From positions 1-48,923 of the forward strand of contig JAHJMN010000089.1 of the NCBI GenBank assembly GCA_018821305.1: DNA of 48,923 nt, read 5' to 3'. Positions 24,111 through 31,421 of the stretch are shown here, piece after piece (position 1 is the stretch's first letter; each line of letters starts with the position of its first letter). This stretch comes from Myxococcota bacterium (GTDB lineage: Bacteria; Myxococcota_A; Polyangia; HGW-17). Both the position numbers and the translations under genes were made by a program. The notes beneath the pieces are model-generated. The model made no database searches, had not been told where the DNA came from, and saw only the letters and a list, made by a program, of their open reading frames with translations.

Positions 24111-24464
24111 ATGGATTGTAATTGCTCAGTTACTGTGCGTGTTACTGAAAACAAAGGCAGATGCCTTTTTGCCGTTAAGCCAATTGCTTGTGGGAATGTG
24201 GCTGTTTGTAATCACATAATAAAACTGGATCAATCCATCGGACAGGATCCCGGGATAACCGAACATGAGTTTTCCTGGCCTGACGGTGGTTTATGTCTCA
24301 CCATGGGAGCCATAACTTTTGCAAATCATTCCAGTACGCCTAATTGCTCTTTAAAACCAAATGAAAAAGACCTCACCATGTCTCTTGTAGCCCTGAGGGA
24401 TATTTCTCCCGATGAGGAACTCACCTACAATTATGACTGCGAACTATGGTTTGCAGAGCTTTAA
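24111..24464 (+). CDS. Compact SET-domain protein
   Basis: 117 residues consisting of only a SET domain. Motifs are GRCLFAVKPIACGNVAV (SET-N), ANHSSTPNCSL (residues 71-81, the NHS...PNC S-adenosylmethionine/substrate motif) and ELTYNYDCE (103-111, the catalytic EELxYxYD-type strand with the key Tyr). SET proteins are lysine methyltransferases that use SAM. Bacterial stand-alone members of this size are common in some phyla but their targets are mostly unknown. A clear TGGAGG RBS lies 5 bases before the ATG. It lies 17 bases after the small lipoprotein, so the two probably share a transcript. Confidence 0.82.
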   Translation: MDCNCSVTVRVTENKGRCLFAVKPIACGNVAVCNHIIKLDQSIGQDPGITEHEFSWPDGGLCLTMGAITFANHSSTPNCSLKPNEKDLTMSLVALRDISPDEELTYNYDCELWFAEL

Positions 24465-24530: not shown

Positions 24531-26417
24531 ATGAAACTGAGTCATAAATTATTAATACTGAGTTCTTTTGTGTTTTTAATCGGTGCTGGTTGTGAAGGAA
24601 AATCATCGTCTTACAACAATATAAACAACACAAATAATTCGAATAATACTAATAATACTAATAACAGTAATAACTCGAATAATACCAACAACACGAATAA
24701 CACAAATAATATCAATCCCGAGTGTGGAAACGGTGAACTCGAAGGAACGGAAGTTTGTGACGACGGCAATACGAATCCATTGGACGGTTGCAGTGCTGAC
24801 TGCTCGACTATCGAACCGGATTTTGCCTGTCCCGTGCCCGGGGAAGACTGCGTACGGATTGTAATCTGCGGAAACGGTCGAATTGAAGGCAACGAAACTT
24901 GCGATGATCGCAATACAAACAGCAATGACGGCTGCAGCGCAAACTGTACAATTGAGTCCGGCTGGATCTGCCCTGTTGTGGGAGCCGCATGCATAGCTGA
25001 ACGCTGCGGGGATGGCATAAAAGCAGGGTTTGAACTCTGCGACGACGGAAATAATAATCCGAACGACGGCTGCAGCCCCGACTGCAGACTCGAAGACGGC
25101 TACAACTGCGTCGGTACAAACTGTTATCAGACAATCTGCGGCGATGGAAATGTCGAAGGGACCGAAGAATGCGACGACGGTAATGCCCAAGTGGGTGATG
25201 GATGCAGCCCTGACTGCAAACGCGAGCCCAATTGCACCGGAGGAACCTGTCTTGCGGTGTGTGGCGATGGTATAGTCTGGGCTCCGGAGCAATGCGATGA
25301 TGGCAATACCATGTCCGGGGACGGCTGCAGCGCAAACTGCACAATTGAAACGGGTTGGGAATGCGTTGAAATCCCCGAAACCCCGCCGGATCAAATCTTC
25401 CTCCCCACAACTCTGAGAGATTTCATTCCCGGATGCGGAACCTATGCCCGACCCACGGATGAAGCTGCAGGCGCTCAGGCTCCCTACGGTCACCCGGATT
25501 TTGAATGTTACGGCGGAAGTGTCATCGATCCCAACAACGTAGAAGATGACCTTAGCCCCGATAAAAAGCCTGTTCGTATTGCAAATACAGTAACTTACAG
25601 CGATGCGTCTTTTAATTTATGGTATCGCTCAAACGACGATTATAACCGTACCTACAGTCAGATGCTTCCCCTCACAAACATTGGAAATGGCGTCTATCGC
25701 TATGAAAGCGCTGCACATTTTCCTCTTGACACTCTGGGCTGGATTAATGAACTTTGTGGTGGAGTCCAGTGTGAACCGCTTCAGCAGGGGCACAATTTCA
25801 GTTTCACCAGTGAAATAAGATACTGGTTTGAATACAACGGAACTGAACTCCTTGAATTCACCGGTGACGACGACGTCTGGGTATTTATTAACAACCGTCT
25901 GGCCGTTGATGTGGGCGGAATGCATCCTCCTCAAAGTGGTTCCGTAAACCTTGGAGACGCAGGAGTTGCTGCATTTTTAGGAATTACCGTTGGCGGAATC
26001 TATGAAGCAGTGGTTTTCCACGCGGAAAGACACACTTTTGGTTCAAATTACCGTCTGACTCTCACAAACTTCAATCGCGCGCCTTCCCAGTGTACATCTG
26101 ATTGCGGTGATGGAATAATCAGTTCCGTTGAAGCCTGTGACGATGGTGTAAACGATGGCAGTTATGGCACATGCAACTCCGATTGCACTCTTGCTCCCTA
26201 TTGTGGCGACGGTCATATCGATACCGAATTCGGCGAAGTCTGTGACGACGGAATCAATCTCGGCGGCAATGCATCCGCTTGTTCACCGGGCTGTCAGGAC
26301 TTTGGTGCATCCTGTGGTGATGGAGTACTTCAAGTATCTGAAGGTGAACAGTGCGATGACGGAAACACCGTCAGCGGCGACGGCTGCAGCCCCGATTGCC
26401 TCATCGAAATCGAGTAA
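24531..26417 (+). CDS. Cys-rich fibro-slime-domain lipoprotein (Myxococcus disulfide repeats)
   Basis: 628 residues. The signal peptide ends at lipobox GAGC (Cys ~20). A striking Asn/Thr/Ser spacer follows (about residues 30-63), then about five Myxococcus cysteine-rich repeats of the form CGDG...CDDGN...GDGCS.DC (residues ~64-290). A fibro-slime domain follows (about 300-520; GDDDVWVFINNRLAVDVGG, YEAVVFHAERHTFGSNYRL), with three more Cys repeats to the end. Fibro-slime domains occur in extracellular adhesive or matrix proteins; the Cys repeats are a Myxococcota/Deltaproteobacteria hallmark. Likely a surface-anchored adhesin. RBS GGAGG before the ATG. The TAA stop abuts the R1 element at 26418. 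Confidence 0.88.
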   Translation: MKLSHKLLILSSFVFLIGAGCEGKSSSYNNINNTNNSNNTNNTNNSNNSNNTNNTNNTNNINPECGNGELEGTEVCDDGNTNPLDGCSADCSTIEPDFACPVPGEDCVRIVICGNGRIEGNETCDDRNTNSNDGCSANCTIESGWICPVVGAACIAERCGDGIKAGFELCDDGNNNPNDGCSPDCRLEDGYNCVGTNCYQTICGDGNVEGTEECDDGNAQVGDGCSPDCKREPNCTGGTCLAVCGDGIVWAPEQCDDGNTMSGDGCSANCTIETGWECVEIPETPPDQIFLPTTLRDFIPGCGTYARPTDEAAGAQAPYGHPDFECYGGSVIDPNNVEDDLSPDKKPVRIANTVTYSDASFNLWYRSNDDYNRTYSQMLPLTNIGNGVYRYESAAHFPLDTLGWINELCGGVQCEPLQQGHNFSFTSEIRYWFEYNGTELLEFTGDDDVWVFINNRLAVDVGGMHPPQSGSVNLGDAGVAAFLGITVGGIYEAVVFHAERHTFGSNYRLTLTNFNRAPSQCTSDCGDGIISSVEACDDGVNDGSYGTCNSDCTLAPYCGDGHIDTEFGEVCDDGINLGGNASACSPGCQDFGASCGDGVLQVSEGEQCDDGNTVSGDGCSPDCLIEIE

Positions 26418-26576
26418 TAAGTTAATGTCCTGAAATTCGACATTTTCAAGTTAATGACGAATTTGTTCACAGGACATTAAGAATGAAGACCTTGAAATTA
26501 TTGTAGTGTTCTGAATAGCATGTTTTCCTAAACATGCTCAATTTTGATAAAAATTGAATTTCAGGACACAAACTTA
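26418..26576 (+). repeat. R1 element copy f
   Basis: A 159 bp element. The left end TAAGTTAATGTCCTGAAATT and the right end AATTTCAGGACACAAACTTA are inverted repeats (17 of 20 positions). The first hairpin closes on CAGGACAT at about 26470; the second contains AGCATGTTTT...AAACATGCT and ATTTTGATAAAAAT. It begins on the base after the TAA stop of the fibro-slime lipoprotein and ends just before an R2 copy. The internal sequence differs from copies b, c and e, so this is a subfamily sharing ends and architecture. Confidence 0.75.
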
Positions 26577-26587
26577 AATGATTCAGG

Positions 26588-26782
26588 AGAAAGCCCCTGA
26601 TTGTCCTGTTCCTGCTACTGATTTCCTGTGTTCCTGTATTTTTTAACAGGTAGACAGGCAATCAGGAAAACAGGTTCAGGATCTGCGGTTAAACATTCAA
26701 AATCAATGCATAATTACAGATGGCAGGATGGAAATATTCACTTTTCCCAATTTCGATCCTTTTACTCATGAAGCGGTCTAAT
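26588..26782 (+). repeat. R2 element copy a
   Basis: The tail AAGCCCCTGATTGTCCTG starts a set of CCTG units that face inverted CAGG units across ATTTTTTA, forming a long imperfect hairpin. The body follows (AAACATTCAAAATCAATGCA; GGCAGGATGGAAATATTCAC), then TTTCGATCCTTTTACTCATG and the head GAAGCGGTCTAA (reverse complement TTAGACCGCTTC). It is closely related to the copies at 30310-30512 and 48265-48416. Confidence 0.85.
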
Positions 26783-26799
26783 CGCTGCCATCCTGCCTG

Positions 26800-27292
26800 A
26801 CTACACGTATTCGACTGAATTCTACACGTACTTACCTGAATTTTACCGCCAGTCGGCATGAACCTACACGTACTCATCTGAATTCTTGTTTCGGTCGGCA
26901 TGAACCTACACGTACTCCTCTGCATTCTTTCTCCAGTCGTCATGATCCTACACGTACTCACCTGAATTTTACCGCCAGTCGCACCGATTTTACTTGAACC
27001 CATGTGGATTTAACCTCCGGTTGCACGGATTTAACCGCAAGCCACAATCTTTTTACCTCCGGTCGCTCTGATTTTACTTGAACCCATGTGGATTTAACCT
27101 CCGGTCGCACGGATTTAACCGCAAGCCACAATCTTTTTACTTCCGGTCGCCCTGATTTTACTTGAACCCATGTGGATTCAGATTCCTGCTACACTGATTT
27201 TACTTGAACCCATGTGGATTCAGATTCCAACTACTCTGATTTTACTTGAACCCATGTAGATTCAGATTCCTGTCACTTTGGTTTTACTTACA
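26800..27292. repeat. 21-bp minisatellite with 42/84-bp higher-order periods
   Basis: The anchor CTACACG occurs at 26801, 26822, 26864, 26906 and 26948 (spacings 21, 42, 42, 42). In the second half the anchor ACTTGAACCCATGT recurs at 26992, 27076, 27160, 27202 and 27244 (84, 84, 42, 42). All spacings are multiples of 21, so the unit is 21 bp with diverged alternating versions. The first five units lack minus-strand stops and would read as seven-residue units such as TGGKIQV-STCRIMT-TGERMQR-STCRFMP. The second half carries in-frame stops, so coding is doubtful. Confidence 0.85.
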
Positions 27293-27299
27293 GAAAAGC

Positions 27300-27407
27300 G
27301 CAAGACAGGGTCAGGTCATAAACATCTAATATAAATGTAAAATTACAAAAACTTGAAGCAAATATTCACTTTTTAGATTTCTATTTTTGTACTCATGAAG
27401 CGGTCTA
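27300..27407 (+). repeat. R2 element copy d (partial)
   Basis: CAGGGTCAGGTCATAAACAT continues into a diverged body (TATAAATGTAAAATTAC; AATATTCACTTTTTAG) and a well-kept head, GTACTCATGAAGCGGTCTAT. It has the same orientation as the copy at 26588. The tail is shortened by the adjoining minisatellite. Confidence 0.7.
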
Positions 27408-27430
27408 TGCTAACAATAATATGGGCTTTC

Positions 27431-27552
27431 CGCGTTCTTGCGAACGCTGAATTTCCGACGTTTGGTAATCACATCAGCGTGAGTGGCATCGCACCTGATG
27501 CCTCATGCGACGTTGAATCGGCGGATCATAAGCCTGTGACCACACAGGCGAC
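27431..27552 (+). repeat. R4 repeat copy 1
   Basis: It starts with the hairpin GCGTTCTTGCGAACGC, continues TTTCCGACGTTTGGTAATCA and ends in GCGGATCATAAGCCTGTG followed by ACCACACAGGCGACAAC. The end holds the perfect hairpin GCCTGTG-ACCA-CACAGGC (27532-27549). The first half recurs, diverged, at about 29777-29880; the second half recurs at 29583-29630 and 30189-30238. Together these copies flank the AT-rich gene pair. Confidence 0.75.
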
Positions 27553-27865
27553 AACTTGTAAATGACAACGTAAAAGAGCAAAAAAAGTGAAAATTCTTTT
27601 TGAAAACGAAAATATACGTTCCATAAACGAACATATAAATGGATAAATTGTTCACATTGACCACAAAGCGGAGAAAAGATCGAAACAGATATTGAAAAAT
27701 GTCACTTTTTAAATAAAATAAAAAAACTAATCGCAGTCGGTTATTTTCAGGACAGCAACTTATTAATAAAGAAGGATAATATAGCCCCAATGTTAATGGA
27801 TGGCGGAATAAAAAGTGCAAAAATACCAGGAAATAACCCTGGTGTTTACTCCACACAGGTTCTAA
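27553..27865. other. Leader of the AT-rich gene, with R1 end remnant
   Basis: About 310 bases without a supported gene. It is A/T-rich with several homopolymer A runs. TTTCAGGACAGCAACTTATT at about 27744-27763 matches an R1 right end without the rest of the element. ACCAGGAAATAACCCTGGT (about 27827-27845) is a 6 bp hairpin shortly before the lipoprotein start. A 35-codon ORF from 27791 was not judged real. Confidence 0.4.
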
Positions 27866-28423
27866 ATGATGTTGAAAAAACTTCTTCTAATTTTTAGCGT
27901 ATTTTATTTTATGGGTTGCTCTGTTCCGCCTGCTGTTTCAATTGAAAACTACGAACACATCAGCAATATAGTTGTCGTGAAAAATAATTTATATGCCTAT
28001 TTTGAAAAATTTTTCTTACCAATTTTTCTTCCAGTAAAAGATATTGACGAGTATGATATATATTTTACTGAAAAGTATTTGAAATTCGAAAATGGTATAT
28101 ATAAATATAAAAGTAAAATTATTGGTATTGATGCTGATTTTGTAGACGCAAATAAAATAAATATTGAGAATTTAATTGCAAATTTAAAAACGGATTTTTT
28201 CTTTATAGATTCAGTATTTTGTAATTATAATAAATATATAGAGTTAGTAAGAAAAAAAGTAAAGTTTTTAATTTTGCTAGATAGACGTAATGACAGACTC
28301 GGATTCGATATAGAAAATACGAAATGTAAAATCAAAAATTTTAAAGATACTAAATTTATTTTAGCTTTTCATGATTTTATGTTTTCTGATATTCCGAAAA
28401 AATCAAATTTATGGAATAATTAA
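27866..28423 (+). CDS. AT-rich lipoprotein, N-terminal part
   Basis: 185 residues. It starts MMLKKLLLIFSVFYFMGCS, a lipoprotein signal with Cys about position 18, then a Lys/Asn/Ile/Phe-rich polar sequence with no recognised domain. Base composition by eye is far lower in GC than its neighbours, pointing to recent transfer or a different selective history. The frame closes at ...PKKSNLWNN, but the +1-shifted frame overlapping from 28371 continues at the same composition with leucine-rich repeats. The two are probably one ~487-residue gene broken by a shift near the A-run at about 28397-28402. The RBS is weak. It sits inside an island bordered by R4 repeats. Confidence 0.6.
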   Translation: MMLKKLLLIFSVFYFMGCSVPPAVSIENYEHISNIVVVKNNLYAYFEKFFLPIFLPVKDIDEYDIYFTEKYLKFENGIYKYKSKIIGIDADFVDANKINIENLIANLKTDFFFIDSVFCNYNKYIELVRKKVKFLILLDRRNDRLGFDIENTKCKIKNFKDTKFILAFHDFMFSDIPKKSNLWNN

Positions 28424-29330
28424 ACTGAAATGTGATAAATCATGGCCATGTGAAGAACTTGATGAAAAGTTTTTAATGTTAAGCCAATATAAAAATTTGA
28501 GATTTTTAAAATATCCTTTTTTTAAAAATATTATTCTGAAAAATTACAAAAACCTGGAAATGCTTATCAATGATAATACTAATGTTGATGTATACAAACT
28601 TCCTATAATTACTAATTATTTAGGTAATATTTCATCTGATAATACTAGATTTTTTTATCGAAACAATAATACAATATTTTATAAATTTGGAATAAGAAAA
28701 CAAGTGTATTATATACTTAATGATTCTTATTATGAAATAAGAAATAAAAATGTTAAGCAATTTTCTGTTTATACAGATTCGATTAAAAAAATTCCAATAA
28801 AAAACAATGTTAACCTTTTATTTATTAATGCAAAAGTTAATATTGAAAGGAATAATTTCGAGGACAGTTTAAATATTCTTTCTATACATAAAGACAAAAT
28901 ACATAAATTAGAATTGATTAATAATAATAAACTATATACAATTAAACAAATTGAGAGTATACTCGCATATATTAAATCATTTACTCAATTGGAAATACTT
29001 ATTTTAGAAGGATTTGAAAATATAACTGATGAACTCTTACTTAAAATAGTTGAAAATCAAAAGTATTTAAAACACTTACGTATATTTTCTTCTAAAATAC
29101 ATGGTAAAAATATAAAATACATTATTGATAAATATCCAGGAATATTCCAAATACAGTTTTTTCATCATGAATTCCTTGAAAGCGAATTCAAAAAATTGGA
29201 TGACAGTTTCCAGATGAAAAAATTATTTTTATGTGATAATCCATATAAATGCTTTTTCTACAAGCAAATCGAAAAAAACATTATCCCTATAATAGATCAT
29301 TTATTGTTACCACAAATGCCAGAAGGATGA
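28371..29330 (+). CDS. AT-rich leucine-rich-repeat-like protein, C-terminal part of a frameshifted gene
   Basis: 319 residues, in a different frame from the preceding lipoprotein and overlapping it by 53 bases. Its first ~20 residues are probably not translated as such. From KLKCDKSWPCEELDEKFLML onward it carries irregular LRR-like units (LSQYKNLRFLKYPFFKNI; KSFTQLEILILEGFENITDE; NQKYLKHLRIFSSKIHGKN). This would fit a surface lipoprotein with an LRR solenoid, for binding or recognition. No upstream RBS or start supports independent translation. Either a pseudogene, a programmed shift or a sequencing error is possible. It ends 64 bases before a transposase remnant. Confidence 0.5.
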   Translation: MILCFLIFRKNQIYGIIKLKCDKSWPCEELDEKFLMLSQYKNLRFLKYPFFKNIILKNYKNLEMLINDNTNVDVYKLPIITNYLGNISSDNTRFFYRNNNTIFYKFGIRKQVYYILNDSYYEIRNKNVKQFSVYTDSIKKIPIKNNVNLLFINAKVNIERNNFEDSLNILSIHKDKIHKLELINNNKLYTIKQIESILAYIKSFTQLEILILEGFENITDELLLKIVENQKYLKHLRIFSSKIHGKNIKYIIDKYPGIFQIQFFHHEFLESEFKKLDDSFQMKKLFLCDNPYKCFFYKQIEKNIIPIIDHLLLPQMPEG

Positions 29331-29394
29331 GGGCCATCTGTAACAGGAAAGCTTATAATAATTGTTTATAAGAAGTGGTATAGAGGAAAAAGCT

Positions 29395-29487
29395 ATGCCG
29401 AAATATGACAGAGAGTTCAAAGAATCAATTATCAAAAAGATGATTCCACCTCAATCCAAACGAATAGCGGAACTATCGGAGGAATAA
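29395..29487 (+). pseudogene. Truncated transposase OrfA N-terminus
   Basis: 30 codons, MPKYDREFKESIIKKMIPPQ then SKRIAELSEE and a stop. This is the helix-turn-helix N-terminus of an IS3-type OrfA (usual form KY..EFK..IV.KML.P....V.ELS.E.GI). It is cut off right after ELSEE, where the usual GIS..TLY.W would follow. AGAGGAAAAAG lies upstream. The truncation point coincides with the start of the R4-containing duplicated segment at about 29478, so that segment likely replaced the rest of the IS. Confidence 0.6.
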
Positions 29488-29632
29488 AAAATCCCTGGTG
29501 GGGTTTGGGTACGGCAATATCGCAAAGCGAAATGCGAAGAGGGTAATCAGCATGAATCACCTCACCGGTGAATCCAAACATCGATGTTGAATCTACGGAT
29601 CATAAGCCTGTGACCACACAGGCGACAGCTTT
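29478..29632 (+). repeat. R4-containing duplicated segment, copy 2
   Basis: It begins GGAGGAATAAAAAATCCCTG, continues with GCAATATCGCAAAGCGAAAT and GCGAAGAGGGTAATCAGCAT, and ends with GATCATAAGCCTGTG, ACCA and CACAGGCGACAGC (hairpin 29606-29623). It is a diverged direct copy of 30069-30242. Both copies keep one plus-strand frame ending NPWW-(3)-AISQ-x-EMRRG-stop, a hint that this part once coded for a protein tail. Confidence 0.7.
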
Positions 29633-29666
29633 CCAGCCCGGGTCGTAAAAGCCGGGTCGTTTGATC

Positions 29667-29717
29667 CCTTCCCCTGTTTCATGCGCCGCCTTTGGCGGCG
29701 CATGAAACAGGGGAAGG
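29667..29717. repeat. Perfect 24-bp inverted repeat with 3-nt loop
   Basis: The arms 29667-29690 and 29694-29717 are exact reverse complements, with loop TTT; the centre reads GCGCCGCC-TTT-GGCGGCGC. The sequence is GC-rich inside an otherwise AT-rich island. It can form a very stable hairpin or cruciform. No T-run follows, so it is not a typical intrinsic terminator. It lies between R4 segments; function unknown. Confidence 0.85.
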
Positions 29718-29776
29718 AGGGAAGGAGGGTGGGCGCGATTCCAATCCCAGGGTTGAAACCCTGCGCTATACAAAGG

Positions 29777-29940
29777 CGTTCTACGAACGCGGAAATTCCG
29801 ACGTTTTGTAATAACTTCAGCGTGAATGCCATCGATCCTTGAATCCCCATGCCACGTTGAACGAACGGATCATAAACGTGAATGACACCAACCTGAATCC
29901 AAACGTTGACGTTGAATGAACGGATCATAAAAACACGGGA
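29777..29940 (+). repeat. R4 repeat, diverged copy of the 27431 half
   Basis: GCGTTCTACGAACGC, then GAAATTCCGACGTTTTGTAA and GCCACGTTGAACGAACGGAT parallel the copy at 27431-27520. A second GTTGAATGAACGGATCATAA follows at about 29911. The GCCTGTG...CACAGGC hairpin is missing from this copy. Confidence 0.6.
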
Positions 29941-30068
29941 TTACACAAACCTGAATGCAACCTGCCCACCCCAAAAAGAAACACGGGAAAAAGAACCTGC
30001 AACGCGGGTTCCACATATTCATCGTTTTTCTGTGAAAATCGGTGTAAGCGAAGGGATTAAAGATACCG

Positions 30069-30242
30069 GAGGTATCGAAAATCCCTGGTGGGTGGTGGGT
30101 CCGGCAATTTCGCAACGCGAAATGCGAAGAGGGTAATCACATCAGCCTGAATGACATCAGCCTGAATGACATCAACGGTGAATCCAAACATCGATGTTGA
30201 ATCTACGGATCATAAGCCTGTGACCACACAGGCGACAGCCCC
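30069..30242 (+). repeat. R4-containing duplicated segment, copy 3
   Basis: It begins GGAGGTATCGAAAATCCCTG and ends with the GCCTGTG-ACCA-CACAGGC hairpin (30216-30233) followed by GACAGCC. It is diverged from 29478-29632 and longer by an internal tandem TCAGCCTGAATGACA (two copies at about 30143-30172). Confidence 0.7.
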
Positions 30243-30309
30243 TCTATGAAATGCTGAACGTGACCTCTAGATGATTGGATGATTGTGTTTAAAATTGAAG
30301 AAATGCCTT

Positions 30310-30512
30310 CAGGTTAAAGCCCCCTGTTTTCCTGTTCCTGCTACTGATTTCCTGTGCCCCTGTATTTTTTTAACAGGGATTCAGGTAGGCAGGAAAACAG
30401 GGGCAGGAGCAGGAGCAGGCGTAAACATTCAAAATCAATGTATAAATAAAAAGGCAGGATGAAAACATTTACTTTTAATGTTTCAATCCTTTTACTCTGT
30501 CAGCGGTCTAAT
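30310..30512 (+). repeat. R2 element copy b
   Basis: Tail AAAGCCCCCTGTTTTCCTG, CCTG/CAGG hairpin round TATTTTTTTAACAGG, body GTAAACATTCAAAATCAATG then GGCAGGATGAAAACATTTAC, TTTCAATCCTTTTACTC, and head CAGCGGTCTAAT. The head points to the 3' end of the minus-strand tyrosine recombinase, whose stop is 19 bases beyond it. Confidence 0.85.
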
Positions 30513-30530
30513 CCTCTAACTTTGAGTCTT

Positions 30531-31421
30531 TCAGTTTCGGGGGTGGTGTTTTGTGTGGACTGCTTTTAAATCGTCGGCTACGAGGTGAGTGTATATCTGG
30601 GTTGTGCTTAGATCCTGATGGCCGAGCATGGTCTGGACGGACCTGATGTCACCGCCTCTTTCAAGGATGTGCGTTGCAAAACTGTGGCGGATTTTGTGGG
30701 GGCTCAGGCTTTCTTCGACGCCGCACAATCGGGCATATTCCGAAAGAAGTTTCCAGAAACCCTGCCTTGTCATGGGTTTGCCGCTTCTTCCCGGGAAAAG
30801 GCAGTTTGATCCGGTATTTTTTCCCAGCAAAGGTGTGCGACCCATGGCCAGATAATCTAAAATGGCTTGACGGGCACTTCGACCAAATGGAACATACCGC
30901 ATTTTGTTTCCTTTACCGACGCAGTAAAGAACATTGGTATTGAAATCAATATCCGCGATTCTGAGATTCACAAGTTCGCTTACTCTGAGACCCGTGGCGT
31001 AGAGAAGTTCCACCATGGCACGATCCCGAAGACCCCGGGGAGTGGAAGTATCAATAATATTTATTACTTTATCTATTTCTTCCAGAGTAAACACTCTGGG
31101 AAGAGGCTTTCCGTAAGTTGGAGTGCGAATCGTTTCAAAGGGAGTTGAATCAATCACCTGTCGCACTTTAAGAAAAATGTAAAGTCCCCGGACGGCGCTC
31201 AGTACCCGGGCCTGAGATCGGCGGGACATCCTGTCTCCCAGCCAGATCATAAAAGCACTGGCATCCGCAGATGTTAATGTCTCAAAAGAAAGACTGTTTT
31301 CCTCTAAAAACCGCATAAAAAAGCCCATGTCATGGCTGTAACTTTCAAGGGTTTTTCTTGCACGGCCTTTTTCAACACTCAAGTAAATCAGATAATTATC
31401 GATATGAGATGCTACTGTCAT
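30531..31421 (-). CDS. Tyrosine recombinase (XerC/XerD family)
   Basis: 296 residues, the usual Xer length. The N-terminal core-binding domain (SHIDNYLIYLSVEKGRARKT) is followed by the catalytic domain. Catalytic residues are visible: Arg in LYATGLRVSELVNLR, Lys in CVGKGNKMRYVPF, HxxR in HKIRHSFATHILERGG, His in MLGHQDLSTTQIY, and the nucleophile Tyr in that last motif. XerC/D resolve chromosome dimers at dif, and close relatives serve as integrases. Length and motif spelling fit a housekeeping Xer, but its place next to a repeat-rich accessory island means an element-borne recombinase remains possible. The start ATG has no strong RBS. Confidence 0.88.
   Translation of the reverse strand: MTVASHIDNYLIYLSVEKGRARKTLESYSHDMGFFMRFLEENSLSFETLTSADASAFMIWLGDRMSRRSQARVLSAVRGLYIFLKVRQVIDSTPFETIRTPTYGKPLPRVFTLEEIDKVINIIDTSTPRGLRDRAMVELLYATGLRVSELVNLRIADIDFNTNVLYCVGKGNKMRYVPFGRSARQAILDYLAMGRTPLLGKNTGSNCLFPGRSGKPMTRQGFWKLLSEYARLCGVEESLSPHKIRHSFATHILERGGDIRSVQTMLGHQDLSTTQIYTHLVADDLKAVHTKHHPRN

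Follow-up and report, generated by a model that had tools for sequence, protein, structure and literature searches.

Dense accumulation of miniature repeat elements and hairpin-module arrays at an intergenic synteny breakpoint in a Myxococcota genome

The intergenic region between a DUF4215 "fibro-slime" gene, which ends at position 26,417, and a tyrosine recombinase gene, which begins at 30,531, is crowded with repeats around a single AT-rich gene, raising the question of whether it is a decayed mobile island that carried this gene as cargo or a site at which independent elements have accumulated. The window analyzed is the whole 48,923-nucleotide contig C106, one of 216 in the 5.22-Mb draft assembly G000, whose draft state may have affected both how the arrays appear and the splitting of the reading frame described below. 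Eight repeat elements were identified between 26,418 and 30,530 (Table 1), covering 2,247 bp of the 4.1 kb, or about 2 elements per kb, against a background of 0.09 per kb in a 400-kb control sampled at preset positions, a density approximately 20 times that of the genome at large. The densest 4.1 kb held three elements in this position-chosen control and five among regions that had been selected for their repeats, compared with eight in the island. These values bear out the dispersed repeats and the "accumulation hotspot" of the first-pass annotation, which had been made from the DNA letters alone. Families A to D are all genome-wide, none being specific to the island, and the minisatellite alone is nearly private to it. 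The locus is a real accumulation site of unusual density, made up of miniature elements of known kinds, among which the D system is the one distinctive component. The reading favored here, with a probability of roughly 0.75, is that the intergenic region, at a rearrangement breakpoint, has accumulated independent, non-autonomous A, B, C, and D elements beside a minisatellite and the AT-rich gene.

TABLE 1 Features of the repeat-dense region and the adjoining recombinase gene, in window coordinates
Feature	Position	Strand	Description
Family A MITE	26420..26574	.	155 bp, ends AGTTAATGTCCTG.../...CAGGACACAAACT
Family B, 5'-truncated	26576..26781	+	Full-length element ~245 bp, terminal inverted repeat TAGACCGCTTCATGAGTAAAAGGATC
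Minisatellite	26797..27300	.	42/84-bp period
Family B, right-hand half	27305..27408	+	Subtype present at many genome sites
Family D fragment	27432..27557	+	h5 - spacer - h1
Family C	27572..27747	+	~176 bp, four other full-length copies (80-89%)
AT-rich orphan gene	27866..29330	+	Putative lipoprotein-like N-terminus; frames 27866-28423 and 28371-29330
Possible transposase remnant	29395..29487	+	30 codons, then stop
Family D array	29474..30245	+	Spacer-h1/h2-h3-(h4)-h5-spacer-spacer-h6-spacer-spacer-h1
Module h3, perfect hairpin	29667..29717	.	24-bp arms, 3-nt loop
Family B, third copy	30308..30511	+	Of the ~245-bp MITE family
XerC/D-type recombinase	30531..31421	-	Conserved-synteny chromosomal gene, outside the island

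Families A and B resemble bacterial MITEs in being short, non-coding, and bounded by terminal inverted repeats, and A further resembles them in its hundreds of terminal motifs and its short insertion-site duplications. Alignment of 13 copies of A defined the 155-bp element and its terminal inverted repeats, and the 17-base terminal motif has 369 exact occurrences in the genome, compared with 2 of a reversed control. The length is uniform: of 19 intact copies, 15 measure 155 bp, and 11 are bordered by an exact 4-bp flanking duplication, as left at a target site. The island copy has no target-site duplication, its 4-bp flanks being different (AATA and TAAA), which fits either recombination between copies or later decay. 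On contig C26 (G000:C26:16499-16833), three A end motifs are spaced exactly 159 bp apart, suggesting tandem MITEs that share their 4-bp duplications. For B, the end pairs lie about 245 bp apart at several loci, which is the fixed spacing of inverted ends that characterizes MITEs; flanks such as CTAG on either side of its copies suggest a TA-type target duplication, and the 32-base right end is also present in a genome of the same genus (G001). The island copy of B that abuts A lacks its first ~38 bp. This A-B junction is found again on contig C216, and the repeated contact of A with B at a similar junction (L002 and L016) is a point of difference from bacterial MITEs. Of the earlier proposal of a hotspot with nested insertions, the hotspot is supported, by the element density and by A adjoining a B copy without its beginning; strict nesting is at most a possibility. 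No parent transposase was found for A or B, and the search for an autonomous parent of A yielded no pair at IS length among 100 of the 369 end motifs. Most likely, DDE-type transposases would have moved both families in trans by way of their terminal inverted repeats.

Family C is represented by five copies in the genome, including the one in the island. The minisatellite described in the first-pass annotation was recovered with the period given in Table 1. Elsewhere in the genome only weak, partial similarity to it was found, at two places on different contigs, one of them adjoining B and D elements on contig C4.

The gene at the center of the region is as AT-rich as had been claimed: its GC content is 20 to 24% (23% for the gene as a whole), with a minimum of 0.20 in the GC profile, and the coding sequence is split across two frames that overlap at approximately 28,371 to 28,423. 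An assembly error and a real frameshift cannot be separated as the cause of this split. The start of the protein (LLLIFSVFYFMGC) appears lipoprotein-like, and the gene was probably acquired from outside. Its product matched no protein family, and no convincing homologue was found among 38 relatives. The single-sequence structure model, with a mean pLDDT of 44, is too poor to support an LRR fold, so that the LRR label previously attached to the protein is not established. Another orphan gene that is likewise AT-rich and looks similar lies on contig C11 (L075, 1-1026), some 120 bp upstream of a D array; comparison of the two genes detected no similarity in sequence. The short open reading frame that follows the island gene, first described as a transposase stump, has no Pfam or NCBIfam match, but a 16-amino-acid match at 75% beside a B element on contig C67 (L089) suggests, without proving, that it is a remnant.

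Family D consists of arrays of hairpin modules. Approximately 140 pieces are present in G000, and none was found in 12 relatives, including the same-genus genome. No match was obtained in plasmids, in phages, or in a pattern scan of viral contigs, and an origin from any of these sources was rejected on that ground. The order of the modules is constant over about 40 regions: a spacer of ~70 bp ending in GGATCATAA is followed by h1/h2 (GCCTGTG-CACAGGC and CCCGG-CCGGG), the long palindrome h3, h4 (CCCAGAGCTGAAGCACTGGG), h5 (GGCGTTC-GAACGC), a spacer, and h6 (GAACCTGCAACGCAGGTTC). Units, some of them partial, follow one another in tandem, for the most part in the same orientation, in arrays of up to ~1.8 kb, and the repeated partial units point to tandem duplication as the means by which arrays may have lengthened. 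The perfect 51-bp hairpin recognized in the first reading of the island is confirmed as module h3. Among 35 copies of h3 found by a sequence model, pairing between the two arms of the same copy fails at 5.0% of the 21 positions (median 0), compared with 32.7% when arms were swapped between copies, and 0 of 10,000 permutations gave a value as low as that of the own arms. Pairing in the h3 stem is kept by compensatory change while the sequence shifts; the cause of this upkeep may be selection or template-switch correction, which the data do not separate. Integron cassettes were considered and rejected as a source: the spacers hold GTTRRRY-like strings (GTTGAAT), yet the arrays are non-coding and consist of multiple hairpins, and no integron integrase lies close to them.

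The closest known counterparts of the D arrays are the REP/BIME systems with RAYT genes (PMC2817692, PMC3116915, PMC6006769), which they resemble as high-copy extragenic palindromes in mosaic clusters, in the upkeep of the palindromes by compensatory changes, and in the presence, at two of three loci, of a Y1 HUH transposase gene with the same palindromes inverted on either side. They differ from these systems in that each unit is made of several unlike hairpins in a fixed order, separated by ~70-bp spacers, and in that most arrays keep their modules in one orientation, where REPs within a BIME alternate. The h3 palindrome, at ~51 bp, is longer than REP palindromes (20 to 40), and inspection of h4 and h5 by eye revealed no 5' GT[AG]G foot.

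Three Y1_Tnp genes in G000 scored above the Pfam cut-off, and at two of the three loci (C84 and C8) tnpA has h5-h4-h3 on one side and the inverted h3-h4-h5 on the other; no transposase gene was found with modules h1/h2 or h6 on both sides. The two TnpA proteins scanned, those of C84 and C131, scored 78.6 and 64.0 bits against the NCBI IS200/IS605 model (cut-off, 55) and did not match the REP transposase model (23.2 bits for the D-linked TnpA that scored 78.6; cut-off, 80), a point of difference from RAYT systems. By their Y---Q--HH signature (YIEKQELHH and YIQNQEVHH), the proteins would belong to TnpA-Y1 subclass 1.2 (PMC6006769), which they also resemble in low copy number. Members of this subclass, mostly from Cyanobacteria and Bacteroidetes, are described as generally without IS200-type terminal structures and without IS properties (PMC6006769); in contrast, two copies in this genome have inverted three-hairpin ends, and one of the two is located in a CRISPR array. 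This copy, on contig C8, is embedded in an array whose 36-base repeats recur at a spacing of 70 to 74 bases, broken by a single 786-base gap at the tnpA unit. The array contains 11 repeats and lies downstream of genes encoding Cas8g, Cas7g, and Cas56g (type I-G). At the left end of the unit, the stretch made up of repeat, spacer, and left end is tandemly duplicated with a 205-bp step (L274, 5458-7061; G000:C8:13457-15060). The location of this copy inside a type I-G CRISPR array provides direct evidence of past movement of the h5-h4-h3-tnpA-h3-h4-h5 unit. At C84, the second tnpA element is adjoined immediately on its left by tandem repeats of ~72 bp (L275, 5900-6150).

In the published precedent, RAYT genes lie between inverted REPs, for which mobilization in trans is proposed (PMC2817692, PMC6006769), and by analogy with RAYT/REP systems (PMC2817692) TnpA may mobilize the D arrays in trans. 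The predominance of one orientation in D arrays, unlike that in classical BIMEs, counts against the favored reading, as do the unmatched flanks of the island's A copy, the failure to find parents of A and B, and the lack of transposase genes between h1/h2 or h6 modules. A RAYT-like gene on contig C103 (L074, 8662-9597), whose 5' end lies ~150 bp from the start of a D array, scored 29.7 bits against a cut-off of 80 and was rejected as a clear RAYT.

It is a tentative possibility that the AT-rich gene arrived with the D array, D arrays serving as platforms for landing or recombination at which AT-rich accessory genes become trapped. In 500-bp windows within 3 kb of D arrays, 3.8% of the DNA has a GC content below 27%, compared with 0% of the 400-kb control; the orphan gene on C11 is close to a D array; and several neighbors of the arrays are defense or toxin-antitoxin-like genes, suggesting that the arrays are often located in defense or accessory regions. 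However, AT-rich DNA is also frequent in D-free regions picked for A, B, or C copies (L108, L109, L111, and L113), which weakens the case for a D-specific enrichment and may tie AT-rich DNA to repeat-rich accessory regions generally, and the D regions had been selected for their arrays and often lie at contig ends. AT-rich DNA near D is regarded here as characteristic of accessory regions and not as proof of cargo carried by D. The genes recorded near D arrays on contigs C146 (L080), C126 (L083), C67 (L089), and C87 (L096) encode PIN (PDC-M11A), ASCH, a HipA-like kinase with DUF3037, and DUF6602/NucC-like, SLATT-like 2TM, HNH, and PD-(D/E)XK proteins.

The D arrays could also be RNA-level elements, either terminators or processed hairpin RNAs, that are kept by selection on transcript structure and are not mobile DNA. 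The strong compensatory pairing in h3 and the long GC-rich stems would agree with such a role, but it is improbable given the sporadic locations of the arrays, their absence from the same-genus genome, and the use of h3-h4-h5 as the ends of a mobile tnpA unit; furthermore, no Rfam family was found, and perfect palindromes could also come from template-switch correction.

The flanks of the island bear on its integrity as a unit. From the recombinase gene to window position ~45,036, gene order matches contig 75 of G001, mostly at 67 to 76% identity. To the left of the recombinase, G001 contains other genes; its fibro-slime homologue is on another contig, and the gene that occupies its left flank is located on contig C132 in G000. 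Synteny with G001 stops at the island, which therefore coincides with a synteny breakpoint at which the empty site is unreadable, and comparison with the available relatives, left-flank synteny being lost, yielded no empty site. No distant relative carried the island unchanged, the AT-rich gene and the D arrays being absent from all relatives searched. The recombinase contains a PF00589 domain (E value, 2.3e-49) and scored above the cut-off for PRK00283; for the XerD model the score was 327.9 against 329.6. Because it is syntenic with its neighbors in the same-genus genome, the GH15 and FG-GAP genes, it is ruled out as the integrase of the island. The claim that the island ends at a tyrosine recombinase is thus correct as to the gene next door, but this gene is of the conserved XerC/D type and lies outside the island. 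No element-specific integrase, such as integrase-bearing genomic islands have at one end, was found, and the only long repeat near both edges belongs to the genome-wide B family. The idea of a decayed mobile island with a cargo gene, first put forward as a possibility, is only partly supported. One decayed genomic island that the neighboring recombinase integrated, with the AT-rich gene as cargo, draws partial support from foreign-looking GC (~0.22), an orphan gene, an adjacent recombinase, and absence from relatives, but is quite improbable, since that recombinase is syntenic, each repeat family occurs independently across the genome, and no direct repeat was seen to bound the whole block.

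At an accumulation site of the kind favored here, the A, B, and C elements and the D arrays would have landed or recombined independently. The D modules would most likely be cut and joined as single-stranded hairpins by the Y1 HUH transposase, and recombination between repeat copies may have reshuffled the flanking genes. It is unlikely, as a wider proposal, that a subclass-1.2-like IS200 TnpA drives a BIME-like system whose ordered multi-hairpin modules spread in a species-specific manner, preferentially into accessory and defense regions, with perfectly maintained long palindromes, and serve as platforms for recombination, disrupting synteny and capturing AT-rich genes from outside.

The D array family is thus linked to a transposase, for which a naturally occurring insertion serves as evidence, and structured inverted ends are seen with an IS200-like TnpA subclass that was thought to be without IS properties. 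It offers a concrete case for asking how palindrome arrays form and why their stems stay perfect, as well as whether such arrays seed genome rearrangement in bacteria that the usual REP models do not cover. To the left of the region, a small gene for a SET-domain protein (PF00856; window positions 24111-24464) adjoins the fibro-slime gene in this bacterium.
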